From contig NZ_AEEC02000001.1 in assembly GCF_000300975.2 (NCBI RefSeq), positions 186,001 to 250,000 of the forward strand: 64,000 nt of DNA, written 5' to 3'. This document shows positions 41,126-45,125 of this stretch, piece after piece. This DNA comes from Herbaspirillum frisingense GSF30 (GTDB taxonomy: Bacteria > Pseudomonadota > Gammaproteobacteria > Burkholderiales > Burkholderiaceae_D). The position numbers and the translations under genes were made by a program. The notes under the pieces were generated by a model that did no database searches, was not told the DNA's origin, and worked only from the letters and a program-made list of their open reading frames with translations. The stretch's first letter is position 1, and each line of letters opens with the position of its first letter.

Positions 41126-42235
41126 ATGTCTTCTTCCACGTCTCCGTCCACCTCTCAGTCCACCTTCGCTCCGCTGAAGAACGATACCTTCCTGCGAGCC
41201 TTGTTGCGCCAGCCCACCGACTACACGCCGCTGTGGCTGATGCGCCAGGCCGGCCGCTACCTGCCCGAATACCGCGCCACCCGCAGTCGCGCAGGTTCCT
41301 TCATGGGCCTGGCGACCAACCCGGACTACGCGACCGAAGTCACGCTGCAGCCGCTGGAACGCTATCCCCTGGACGCCGCCATCCTGTTCTCGGACATCCT
41401 CACCGTTCCCGACGCCATGGGCCTGGGTCTCTATTTCGCAGAGGGCGAGGGTCCCAAGTTCGAGCGTCCCCTGCGCGATGAAGCCGCGATCCGTGCGCTG
41501 CAGGCCCCGGACCTGGAGCGCCTGGATTACGTCTTCAAGGCGGTCACCCAGATCCGTCGCGAGCTCGATGGCCGGGTTCCGCTGATCGGCTTCTCCGGCA
41601 GCCCCTGGACGCTGGCCTGCTACATGGTCGAAGGTGGTGGCTCGGACGATTTCCGCCTGGTCAAGAGCATGCTCTACAGCCGCCCTGACCTGATGCATCA
41701 CATCCTCAAGACCAACGCCGCTGCGGTAGCCGCCTACCTGAATGCGCAGATTGCCGCCGGTGCGCAGGCCGTGATGATCTTCGATACCTGGGGCGGTGCG
41801 TTGGCCGATGGCATCTACCAGCAATTCTCCCTGGCCTACATGCAGCAGGTGGTCAGCCAGCTCCAGCGCAAGCAGGATGGCCAGCAGATTCCGGTGATTG
41901 TCTTCACCAAGGGCGGTGGCCTGTGGCTGGAGCAGATCGCCGCCATCGGCGCCGACGCCGTAGGCCTGGACTGGACCGTCAACCTGGGCGACGCACGGCG
42001 CCGTGTGGGCGACAAGGTCGCCCTGCAAGGCAACCTGGACCCCAACGTCCTCTTCGCCGGCGACGACGCCATCCGCGCCGAAGTCCGCAAGCTGCTGGAG
42101 TCATTCGGACGTCCTGGCCCCGGCAGTGGCCACGTCTTCAATCTGGGCCATGGCATCTCCCAGCACACCCCGCCGCAAGCCGTGGCGACCCTGGCGCAGG
42201 CGGTGCACGAGATGAGTCGTGCCATGCGCGGCTGA
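41126..42235 (+). CDS. hemE: Uroporphyrinogen decarboxylase
   Basis: A 369-residue HemE. The signature [16 protein letters not shown] is at 35-50 (R40 and R44 bind substrate carboxylates), [15 protein letters not shown] carries the catalytic Asp, and [16 protein letters not shown] is conserved. It removes four acetate carboxyls in heme synthesis. The first 16 residues are Ser/Thr-rich and variable. A GATAAT near 41085 may be its -10. It is directly upstream of a DnaA-box-rich gap. Confidence 0.96.
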
Positions 42236-42395
42236 TCGTGCGCGTATCTGTCGTTATCTGTTCATATCTGTGCGGCGGGATAAGTTAATATGCACATCTT
42301 TGCCGGTCGGAGCTGACTTATACACATTCGCCGCCGTTTTCTGATTGAGAATCAAACTTATCGGAATATGAACGGAAAGCGCAAGACGGTGTTTG

Positions 42396-42530
42396 TAAGT
42401 CCTTGATTTTCATGGATTTATTTTTTTCGAATAAATGCCTGGTCTGTCCGTAAGCCGCTGTGGTATTAGCTCTCGGACTTGTCAAGAGGCACTTGTCAAC
42501 AAAGTTATCCACAGGCGCTGTGCATAATGG
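42396..42530. repeat. Degenerate direct repeat, copy A (with DnaA boxes)
   Basis: About 135 bp that align collinearly with 42763-42897 at a constant offset of 366-367. Shared blocks in order are TAAGTCNTTGATTTT, TGGA, ATTTTTT, CCGTAAGCC, TGTCAAGAGGCAYTTGTC and CAAAGTTATCCACAG. Each copy ends in a pair of DnaA-box-like 9-mers in opposite orientation. Confidence 0.75.
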
Positions 42531-42762
42531 GCAAAAGCGTTTACAAAACCGCCGCTTATCGAAGTATTTGAAGAATTACTTTAAGTTTGTAGGACAGTAC
42601 GCGCAGGTCGGTGCAGGAAAAAGCCAGGGTTTTTTTGTCAGCCAGCACTTGACAAATGCCCTTCGCCTGATCCGCAAACCGGGACTTATGCACATAAAAG
42701 GCATGCCGCATTTGCACAAACCGTCTAAGCAAATTTTTTTCCCGTGCTAAGGCGAAAAATTT

Positions 42763-42897
42763 TAAGTCATTGATTTTATTGGACTAATTTTTTGCCCTGC
42801 ATTTGGGCAGCGCGCCGTAAGCCTCGCCCAGTCTACTCGTGGCGATGTCAAGAGGCATTTGTCCCCAAAGTTATCCACAGGGTTTGTGGATAGGTTG
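42763..42897. repeat. Degenerate direct repeat, copy B (with DnaA boxes)
   Basis: Second copy of the module described for 42396-42530, ending 56 bp before priA. Its inverted DnaA box pair is TTATCCACA (42871-42879) and TGTGGATAG (42885-42893). Confidence 0.75.
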
Positions 42898-42953
42898 AAA
42901 AATGACGATTAAACCGGGGCTTAGGCCGGTTTTTCAGGATTTACATTAAGTTC

Positions 42954-45125
42954 GTGGAACAACGTCTGCTTCAGGTCGCGCTCGATACGCCCCTGCATAC
43001 CGTCTTTGATTACCGCTGGAAGGCCAGTTCGCCGGATGAGCCGTTGCCGGCGATCGGCCAACTGGTGGTGGTCCCCTTCGGCCGCCGCGAAGCCGTCGGC
43101 GTGGTCGTCGGCCAGGATGCGCAGACCGACCTGCAGGCCGACAAGATCAAGGACGTCATTGCCGTGCGGCACCAGTTGCCGCCGATGTCAGCGCATTGGC
43201 TGGCACTGTGCGGCTTTGCCGCCGACTACTACCAGCGTCCGCTGGGTGAGGTGATGCTGCCGGGGCTGCCCAAGAATCTGCGGGCCCTCACCACGGTGGC
43301 GCTGGACAAGGCACTCAAGGCCCTGGGCCGGCTTGCGCCCGCCACCAAGGCCAAGCCCAGGTCCAGGAAAAAGGCGGCGGTGGCCGCCACGGTGGAGGAA
43401 GCTATCGTCGATCCTGTGATGGCCGACCCATCGCCGGACCCGCTGCAACTGGGTGCCGCGCCGCCGCTGAATCCGTCCCAGCAGCAGGCGGTCGATGCGA
43501 TCGTCGGCGCCGAGGGTTTCGCCCCGTTGCTGCTGTATGGCGTCACCGGCAGCGGCAAGACCGAGGTCTACCTGCAGGCTGCCGCCACCATCCTGCGTCG
43601 CGCGGCAGAGCAGGCCAGTTCATCCGGTTCGCCTGAGCCTGGCCAGCCGACGCCGGCCCCCGCCCAGATCCTGGTGCTGGTGCCGGAAATCAACCTGACT
43701 CCGCAGCTGGAAGGCAACATCCGCGCACGTTTCCCGCATCTTAAGGTGGTCGCCCTGCACAGCGGCCTGGCCGAGGGCGAGCGTGCCCGCAACTGGCTGG
43801 CGGCCCACCTGGGGCAGGCGCACATCGTGCTGGGGACGCGGCTGGCGATCCTGTCGTCGCTGCCCTCCCTGAAGCTCATCGTCATCGACGAGGAACACGA
43901 CCCCTCCTACAAGCAGCAGGAAGGTCTGCGCTACTCCGCGCGCGACCTGGCCGTCTGGCGTGCGCACCAGCTGGGCATCCCGGTGGTGCTGGGTTCGGCC
44001 ACACCCTCGCTGGAAACCTGGCAGCACGCCCAGGCCGGCCGCTACCGCCGCCTGGAACTGCGCCAGCGCGCGGCCCTGCAGGCAGTGCTGCCCAGCGTCA
44101 AGGTGATCGACATGGAGCGCGACAAGCCCGTCGACGGCCTGACCTCGACCCTGATCGCGGCCGTGCGCAAGCGCCTGGAGCAGGGCGAGCAGTCGCTGCT
44201 GTTCCTCAACCGGCGTGGCTATGCGCCGGTGCTGGCCTGCGACGCCTGCGGCTGGATCAGCAACTGCATGCGCTGCGATGCCTTCATGGTGGTGCATCGC
44301 CCCGAGCGCCGCCTGCGCTGCCACCATTGCAGCCTGGAACTGCACATCCCACGCGCCTGCCCGACCTGCGGCAACGTCGACCTGCAACCGTTGGGACGCG
44401 GCACCCAGCGGGTCGAAGAGGGCCTGCATGGCATCTTCCCCGAGGCCCGCATCCTGCGCATCGATGCCGACTCCACCCGCCTCAAGGGCTCGGCCCAGAG
44501 CGCTTTCGACAGCGTGCACCGGGGCGAGGTCGATATCCTGATCGGCACCCAGATGGTGGCCAAGGGGCATGACTTCAAAAAGCTCACCCTGGTGGGCGTG
44601 CTCAATCCCGACACCGCCCTGTTCTCGCACGACTACCGCGCCAGCGAGCGCCTGTTCGCGCAACTGATGCAGGTGGCCGGCCGCGCCGGCCGTGCCGGGC
44701 TGTCGGCCGATGGCAGTTCGGGCGAAGTGCTGATCCAGACCCGCTATCCACATCACCCGCTGTACCAGGCCGTGATCCGCCACGACTACGATGGCTTTGC
44801 CGGTGAATTGCTGGACGAGCGGCGCCAGGCGCATTTCCCGCCCTTCATGTACCAGGCACTGTTGCGCGCCGAAGGTCGCGAACTGGAGATCGCCATGGGT
44901 TTCCTGAAGGAAGCGGCCAGCTTGCTGGACGCCCCGGCCATCACCATCAACGAACCGATCCCGATGACCATGATGCGGGTGGCCAATGTCGAGCGTGCCC
45001 AATTGCTGATCGAATGTCCCTCGCGTCCGACACTGCAGGCTTTCCTCAAGGAATGGCTGGCCTTGTTGCGGCAGATGAAGACCCGCGCGCGCTGGTCGCT
45101 GGAAGTCGATCCGGTCGATATCTGA
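42954..45125 (+). CDS. priA: Primosomal replication protein N' (replication-restart helicase)
   Basis: A 723-residue helicase. The N-terminal DNA-binding domain is followed by a Lys/Ala-rich linker (about 128-168), Walker A GVTGSGKT (196-203), DEEH (312-315), and eight zinc-binding cysteines in CDACG...CMRC...CHHC...CPTCG. PriA restarts stalled forks with PriB/DnaT/DnaB. A GTG start at 42954 fits the family N-terminus; the upstream ribosome site is weak. An insertion rich in Ser/Pro/Gln lies near 219-237. Confidence 0.95.
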   Translation: MEQRLLQVALDTPLHTVFDYRWKASSPDEPLPAIGQLVVVPFGRREAVGVVVGQDAQTDLQADKIKDVIAVRHQLPPMSAHWLALCGFAADYYQRPLGEVMLPGLPKNLRALTTVALDKALKALGRLAPATKAKPRSRKKAAVAATVEEAIVDPVMADPSPDPLQLGAAPPLNPSQQQAVDAIVGAEGFAPLLLYGVTGSGKTEVYLQAAATILRRAAEQASSSGSPEPGQPTPAPAQILVLVPEINLTPQLEGNIRARFPHLKVVALHSGLAEGERARNWLAAHLGQAHIVLGTRLAILSSLPSLKLIVIDEEHDPSYKQQEGLRYSARDLAVWRAHQLGIPVVLGSATPSLETWQHAQAGRYRRLELRQRAALQAVLPSVKVIDMERDKPVDGLTSTLIAAVRKRLEQGEQSLLFLNRRGYAPVLACDACGWISNCMRCDAFMVVHRPERRLRCHHCSLELHIPRACPTCGNVDLQPLGRGTQRVEEGLHGIFPEARILRIDADSTRLKGSAQSAFDSVHRGEVDILIGTQMVAKGHDFKKLTLVGVLNPDTALFSHDYRASERLFAQLMQVAGRAGRAGLSADGSSGEVLIQTRYPHHPLYQAVIRHDYDGFAGELLDERRQAHFPPFMYQALLRAEGRELEIAMGFLKEAASLLDAPAITINEPIPMTMMRVANVERAQLLIECPSRPTLQAFLKEWLALLRQMKTRARWSLEVDPVDI

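Follow-up and report, generated by a model that had tools for sequence, protein, structure and literature searches.

The sites DARS1, DARS2, and datA of Escherichia coli act on the nucleotide bound to DnaA. A DARS preferentially binds ADP-DnaA and releases ADP, and DARS2-type activity requires the Fis site FBS2-3. The datA locus promotes hydrolysis of DnaA-bound ATP. As a review describes their architecture, box spacing is equal in DARS1 and DARS2, with box I opposed to boxes II and III, and the head-to-head pair of a DARS depends on box I (PMC5742627). In datA, boxes 2, 3, and 7 are described as pointing in one direction, with one IHF site (PMC5742627, PMC10950094). The IHF sites IBS1-2 of DARS2 are reported to lie 3 bp apart, and IHF sites moved 10 bp away from the core were reported as moderately effective (PMC4245941). 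In E. coli, transcription running through a DARS is reported to be detrimental (PMC5010248).

The literature consulted describes DARS and datA for E. coli and E. coli-like species. One report restricts Fis and the DARS2 core to relatives of E. coli among the gamma-proteobacteria (PMC4245941), a second places DARS-like sequences at similar positions in E. coli-like species (PMC5010248), and the review mentions conservation in beta- or gamma-proteobacteria proximal to E. coli (PMC5742627), a statement that counts against full novelty of the element described here. Among the matches listed, no open-access PMC title concerned a DARS at priA or in the hemE-priA region. Here we analyze the gap between hemE and priA of Herbaspirillum frisingense GSF30 within one 64-kb stretch of DNA (the window).

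RESULTS

The hemE-priA gap contains clustered DnaA boxes and a duplicated module

All five exact DnaA boxes (TTATNCACA) of the window fall inside the 718-bp hemE-priA gap (42236-42953), together with two one-mismatch boxes (CTATCCACA at 42885, minus strand, and ATATGCACA at 42288, plus strand). At the genome rate of 62 per 5.41 Mb (28 for a reversed control pattern), five boxes in 718 bp have a Poisson probability of 3e-13, and 100 shuffles gave a mean of 0.41 and a maximum of 3. The box cluster reported in the original prediction is therefore real. The GC content of the gap is 45%, compared with 62.5% for the window. A 96-codon open reading frame was called mechanically at 42460-42750, and an Rfam search of 42000-43200 returned no match at E ≤ 1. 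Near the starts of two other contigs of this genome (C34:700-748 and C90:315-363), TTATGCACA and TTATCCACA form an identical pair 40 bp apart, perhaps one repeated sequence.

The gap holds two copies of a module that runs towards priA in the order distal DnaA box (Box1, plus strand), IHF site, and three-box core. Scores for the whole modules are from profile R1, and anchors are the box II positions of related gaps, both described below.

41126-42235, plus strand: hemE, upstream neighbor (TIGR01464, 417.3 bits; NCBIfam cut-off 302.95)
42312-42540, plus strand: whole module, copy 1 (R1 99.5 bits; also an R1 training row)
42318-42326, plus strand: copy 1 distal DnaA box (Box1), TTATACACA, exact; equivalent present, as a single Box1 together with a good IHF site, in 80/90 anchors
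42396-42408, minus strand: copy 1 predicted IHF site, perfect consensus, TAAGTCCTTGATT on the plus strand, 109 bp before box II
42493-42501, plus strand: copy 1 core box III, TTGTCAACA, two mismatches
42505-42513, plus strand: copy 1 core box II, TTATCCACA, exact
42519-42527, minus strand: copy 1 core box I, TTATGCACA, inverted
42677-42903, plus strand: whole module, copy 2 (R1 116.2 bits; also an R1 training row)
42686-42694, plus strand: copy 2 distal DnaA box (Box1), TTATGCACA, exact
42763-42775, minus strand: copy 2 predicted IHF site, perfect consensus, TAAGTCATTGATT on the plus strand, 108 bp before box II
42859-42867, plus strand: copy 2 core box III, TTGTCCCCA, two mismatches
42871-42879, plus strand: copy 2 core box II, TTATCCACA, exact
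42885-42893, minus strand: copy 2 core box I, CTATCCACA, inverted, one mismatch
42954-45125, plus strand: priA, downstream neighbor, GTG start (NF004067, 947.5 bits; NCBIfam cut-off 763)

The best 40-bp windows of the two copies are identical at 34/40 positions at an offset of 366, 29/40 at 367, and 28/40 at 365. This agrees with the original prediction of a module duplicated at about 366 bp, each copy ending in an inverted box pair. The predicted copy length of 135 bp did not hold, as the unit extends from the distal box through the IHF site to the inverted pair. The AT-rich tracts noted in the prediction are present, and each carries a perfect IHF consensus. By eye, the sequence after copy 1 (ATTACTTTAAGTTTGTAGGACA, 42540-42600) resembles the stretch that follows copy 2 and holds the leader and start of priA (TTTACATTAAGTTCGTGGAACA, 42930-42960), and the duplicated segment may have included the start of priA.

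Box and IHF positions are conserved upstream of priA

We compared the gap across 80 genome contigs picked by PriA similarity. HemE lies upstream of priA, within 4 kb, in 78 of the 80 loci; the two without a HemE match (L051 and L098) have little upstream sequence. These 78 gaps (43.8 kb) contain 206 copies of TTATNCACA, compared with 25 in 1.50 Mb of flanking DNA. Every perfect plus-strand TTATCCACA in the 79 gaps (the 78 and that of the window) was taken as an anchor, which yielded 90 anchors from 72 gaps, with none in the remaining 7.

A same-direction box with at most two mismatches occurs at -12 in 87/90 anchors (7 at the next best offset), and an inverted box occurs at +14 in 47/90 (4 at the next best offset). 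Between -400 and +200 of box II, the strict IHF consensus in the '<' orientation gave 56 matches, all at -107 to -111, and the opposite orientation gave four, at other positions. With up to one mismatch, an IHF site is present at -113 to -106 in 80/90 anchors and in 0/450 control windows. A linker scan of the 79 gaps, in which other linker settings can share two boxes of the same core, found 66 cores with 3 bp between boxes III and II and 5 bp between boxes II and I; the next best setting found 15. The fixed offsets and linkers uphold the predicted selection on spacing and orientation, and comparing this gap among relatives, as had been proposed, revealed conserved box spacing.

Box1 is mostly located 164-197 bp before box II. 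It was not found in range, at one mismatch or fewer, for four anchors (L079, L092, L102, and L105), and two candidates occur in L075. Across the 80 modules that have a single Box1 and an IHF site of at most one mismatch, Box1-IHF distances form four groups (56-57, 65-69, 75-79, and 88 bp), and their vector strength at 10.5 bp is 0.81 for all modules and 0.73 for the 12 distinct distances. As the rows are related, these values do no more than suggest helical phasing of Box1 relative to the IHF site.

Box I varies among taxa, which we grouped by our own assignment. It is present in 36/43 Oxalobacteraceae-like anchors, 5/5 Rhodocyclaceae, 3/3 Ralstonia-like anchors, and both window copies, and was found in 0/6 Cupriavidus, 0/13 Alcaligenaceae-like, 0/4 Pandoraea, 0/1 Paraburkholderia, and 1/13 other anchors.

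A profile of the module detects it beyond the order

An exact tandem motif was detected in 66/300 genomes of the order and 31/274 of the class sample (H. frisingense counted in both), with a reversed control at 0. Among 59 tandem-motif loci, a PriA match lies 48-450 bp downstream in 34, or 35 when L235 (at +913) is included. For the 29 class-sample loci outside our genome, PriA matches downstream in 15 and HemE within the 1.5-kb flank in 1, so that the link between hemE and the Caulobacter origin, cited in the original prediction, fails to explain the site. The exact-motif survey also picks up tandem boxes in other contexts (e.g., L237 and L241). Because it undercounts, we built R1, a sequence-only profile from 28 modules: the two window copies, 15 from 14 PriA loci, and 11 from loci of the survey, without E. 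coli rows.

R1 matched 77/80 PriA loci at E ≤ 1e-5, 14 of which gave training rows and are not independent; all 110 matches are on the priA strand. No match at this threshold was obtained in L092, L096, or L098. A second complete match lies within the gap at 29 loci. In Roseateles toxinivorans (L094, 8905-9844), three modules follow one another in tandem, apparently amplified independently of those in Oxalobacteraceae. Two Undibacterium loci (L059:2212-2392 and L069:8031-8210) have a second module upstream of hemE, outside the hemE-priA gap.

In 75 genomes of the class sample, including our own, PriA scored over the cut-off in 71, and the best 30 of these 71 PriA loci were examined with R1. 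R1 matched upstream of priA in 12 of the 30, from other orders (E ≤ 2.8e-15), and the other 18 had no full match within 1.5 kb before the domain match. All 12 matched loci have an inverted box at +14 with at most one mismatch, and in each of them Box1 precedes box II by 183-192 bp. Eight carry an IHF site of no more than one mismatch at 110-111 bp, and L300 has one elsewhere; none at this stringency was found in L290, L309, or L311.

Against 217 kb of E. coli K-12, R1 gave eight matches at E ≤ 10. The best was DARS1 (30.1 bits), followed by two in the DARS2 stretch (23.2 bits, about 300 bp from the core, and 22.7 bits at the core, aligned with IBS2), datA (22.3 bits, model positions 128-215, which exclude the IHF part), oriC (11.4 bits), and three weaker matches (under 8 bits) in the DARS2 and datA stretches. 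Four 50-kb E. coli control stretches, one containing E. coli priA, had no match.

Modules also occur away from priA

Further R1 matches were found in four relatives. A module lies beside xseA at L267, L268, and L275 (genomes G027, G032, and G004), with xseA over the cut-off in all three and an ExbD/TolR-type gene following in L267. The DARS-type core thus recurs in relatives at a second place, next to xseA. L275 has several box pairs in a row at 14-bp steps. At L255 the module adjoins a PgpA-type gene, and pairs of R1 matches occur at G009:C2:850.3/850.7 kb and G004:C6:416.0/417.0 kb. An HD-type gene was read by eye only beside L217, L218, and L261, and neither L217 nor L261 was assigned a family by NCBIfam or Pfam.

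In H. frisingense itself, the window pair alone matches R1 strongly; the next match scores 21.3 bits. Three-box cores with at most 3/26 mismatches number four in the genome and none in the control. Two of these, C88:35302-35336 and C30:5107-5141, have DARS spacing with 2 and 3/26 mismatches, respectively. No strict IHF site was seen at either, and they are possible DARS1 counterparts.

Candidate origins lie elsewhere

H. frisingense dnaA is located at C81:81255-82634, with parS-like sites at C81:62990 and C81:63091 and an oriC-like locus at C81:74153-75184. The two modules of this locus (74153 and 75018) each combine an AT-rich stretch, a TAG-type run (compare the DnaA-trio, PMC5742627), TGTGGATAA, a perfect IHF site at +27, and a box at +158. 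They flank a short 2Fe-2S ferredoxin-type gene (C81:74100-75200, L006:14100-15200), and a duplicated origin would itself be worth study. Modules of this type also occur in N. aerium (368.2 and 371.1 kb, in opposite orientations), where the element lies at 342 kb, and in C. pauculus (151.9 kb), where it lies at 95 kb; across the three genomes the box is at +157 to +182. The type is not general, as it was not found in the G009, G027, and G032 stretches. An unwinding region with a DnaA-trio run beside a box was not found for the hemE-priA element; the sole formal match on C93 (228519; IHF at +38, two mismatches) has no such run in its left flank. As background, the 31 dnaA loci of our genome and 30 relatives have one to six boxes each.

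GC skew places the element off the minimum in two relatives. The Paenalcaligenes analysis covers 1.78-1.98 Mb and 2.17 Mb onward. Skew there is -0.05 to -0.07 over 1.78-1.98 Mb, negative throughout the 200 kb around the element (1.874 Mb), and -0.03 to -0.08 over 2.17-2.25 Mb; it turns positive at 2.25-2.27 Mb, at a different box cluster near dnaA, and the element is about 377 kb away from the minimum. In C. pauculus, the cumulative minimum falls at about 150-160 kb, on a box cluster at 151.7-153.1 kb and about 57 kb from the element. A GC-skew minimum at the element, suggested originally as an origin mark, was therefore found in neither. The C. pauculus minimum lies away from dnaA, in agreement with C. 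metallidurans, for which a skew transition about 90 kb from dnaA, next to three perfect boxes, is reported (PMC2864759). C. pauculus octamers switch polarity near 260 kb, close to dnaA at 252 kb and at neither the skew minimum nor the element.

An origin in the gap, chromosomal or secondary, would fit the box cluster, the IHF sites, and the low GC content. It would also fit a complete Rhodocyclaceae genome, where the cumulative skew minimum (2.14-2.18 Mb) is only about 18-58 kb from the element; it is also close to dnaA and hardly separates the two. On C81 and C93 of our own genome, a draft of 93 contigs, skew and the octamer GGGCAGGG place no origin; around the candidate oriC on C81, octamers are mostly of one polarity on both sides, and a simple flip does not fit there. 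One-way octamer polarity across priA in Noviherbaspirillum massiliense (50/50 '+' among the matches listed) was dropped as evidence against an origin, because N. aerium skew and octamers show no clean flip at its oriC-like modules, 26-29 kb from the element. In G009, G027, and G032, GGGCAGGG occurs 4-6 times as often as its reversed control and keeps largely to one polarity along extended stretches, and it may be a KOPS-like marker in these Betaproteobacteria. Collectively, the skew of two relatives and the oriC-like loci elsewhere disfavor the origin reading, and the hemE-priA element is probably not the origin. The datA- or DARS-like reading, also offered originally, is supported.

DISCUSSION

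On balance, our comparisons favor reading the gap as two tandem copies of a DARS-type DnaA-reactivating element. The boxes, core geometry, fixed IHF spacing, conservation, likeness to DARS1 and DARS2, and lack of oriC features were observed directly. The core has the steps and orientations of both E. coli sites, and boxes at -12 and +14 and an IHF site recur across the anchors, where only the 3-bp and 5-bp linkers stand out. DARS1, DARS2, and datA are the best E. coli matches of R1, which detects the module at most PriA loci, at priA in other orders, and away from priA; these likenesses suggest a DARS. Several observations count against it: entire groups (e.g., Cupriavidus) lack box I but retain the rest of the module, each window copy has two mismatches in box III, and 18/30 class priA loci lack a full R1 match in the 1.5-kb flank. 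The box-IHF-box part also resembles datA, which R1 scores nearly as the DARS2 core.

By analogy with the biochemistry known from E. coli, we propose the following course for protein binding, nucleotide exchange, and timing. IHF would bend the DNA between the three-box core and the distal DnaA box. DnaA molecules placed head-to-head at boxes I and II, beside box III, would form a complex that releases ADP, and the freed apo-DnaA would take up ATP. Active ATP-DnaA would thereby be raised before the next initiation at oriC elsewhere. The tandem copy might raise dosage, which is a guess. The genome encodes DnaA, four PF00216 (IHF/HU family) proteins, and a Fis homologue (40% identity); a second, weak DnaA-like match on C91 is perhaps Hda.

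A datA-like site is a serious but rather unlikely alternative. IHF-bent DNA would let same-direction boxes assemble ATP-DnaA and promote ATP hydrolysis, or titrate DnaA, restraining re-initiation. In datA, an IHF site oriented as here lies between two boxes of one direction, at -97 from the second of them, compared with about -95 to -99 from box III here. The R1 match to datA, the retention of the box-IHF-box part in groups without box I, and the origin-proximal position of the element in several relatives point the same way. However, the inverted box at +14 is kept in most Oxalobacteraceae-like anchors, in all Rhodocyclaceae and Ralstonia-like anchors, in both window copies, and in 12/12 class matches, the datA match of R1 leaves the IHF part outside, and the best E. 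coli match is DARS1. For H. frisingense, we would rank DARS-type reactivation first and datA-like action second.

It is less probable still that the gap is a priA regulatory region, in which bound DnaA and IHF tie priA transcription to replication state. The module does precede priA in 77/80 loci, there always on its strand, and in 12/30 of other orders. Yet box II lies anywhere between 48 and 487 bp from the priA start (72 loci), whereas the spacings within the module are nearly constant. This variation, together with the modules found next to xseA, next to a PgpA-type gene, and, in Undibacterium, upstream of hemE, argues against plain priA promoter control. The second complete copy, kept farther from priA in 29 loci, also speaks against it. 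Regulation of priA and a DnaA-switch function could coexist. An origin in the gap is very improbable given the oriC-like modules and skew minima elsewhere and the low R1 score of E. coli oriC.

The DARS-type reading and the datA likeness might share a history, an idea we offer tentatively. An ancestral gamma/beta-proteobacterial DnaA-state switch beside the replication-restart gene priA could have given rise to DARS1, DARS2, and perhaps datA as relocated descendants or cousins. Loss of box I in Cupriavidus, Alcaligenaceae, and Pandoraea would have turned it into a datA-like restraining site, and tandem amplification would tune its dose.

A DARS-type element before priA in Betaproteobacteria and other orders is a candidate for ATP-DnaA regeneration outside enterics, and it may help related bacteria time DNA replication. 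The element is open to deletion and assay in such lineages. A natural experiment on reactivation versus inactivation is offered by the groups that retained box I and those that lost it, and Box1 phasing predicts a testable nucleoprotein loop.

Comparison with oriC, datA, DARS1, and DARS2

The oriC of E. coli and our C81 candidate share DnaA boxes and IHF sites with the present element, but their layout differs: TGTGGATAA, IHF at +27, and an opposite box at +158 (C81) or +180 (E. coli, where the IHF site has two mismatches), with an AT-rich flank carrying a TAG-type run in our candidate.

In the datA stretch (glyVXY-queG), boxes at 2745 and 2907, both plus strand, flank an IHF site at 2810; from the second box, the first lies at -162. 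We take these to be boxes 2 and 3. The arrangement of same-direction boxes around IHF is that of the present element, whereas datA is without a three-box core at 12 and 14 bp and has a nearby inverted box at +12 with one mismatch.

Read as its reverse complement, the core of both window copies is box I (plus), 14 bp, box II (minus), 12 bp, box III (minus). DARS1 (bioD-uvrB, L137; boxes 2108 plus, 2122 minus, 2134 minus) and DARS2 (rppH/mutH, K-12, L136; boxes 1636 plus, 1650 minus, 1662 minus) have equal steps and orientations, if, as we read them, these are boxes I-III of the published cores. Both window copies thus have box I opposed at the DARS1/DARS2 spacing, with two mismatches in each box III. 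DARS1 has no strict IHF match in its 4-kb stretch, and R1 aligns no good one there.

DARS2 has two IHF-like 13-mers 3 bp apart (1729 and 1745), and the IHF site corresponding to IBS2 lies on the same side and in the same orientation as ours, at -99 from box II. Here, IHF also has a fixed place beside the core, at 107-111 bp, about one helical turn farther away than in DARS2. The genomic place of DARS2 beside mutH is not shared, and we therefore do not call this a DARS2 locus. Compared with DARS2, the present element has an extra distal same-direction DnaA box beyond IHF, stands before priA rather than near mutH, and occurs in tandem.
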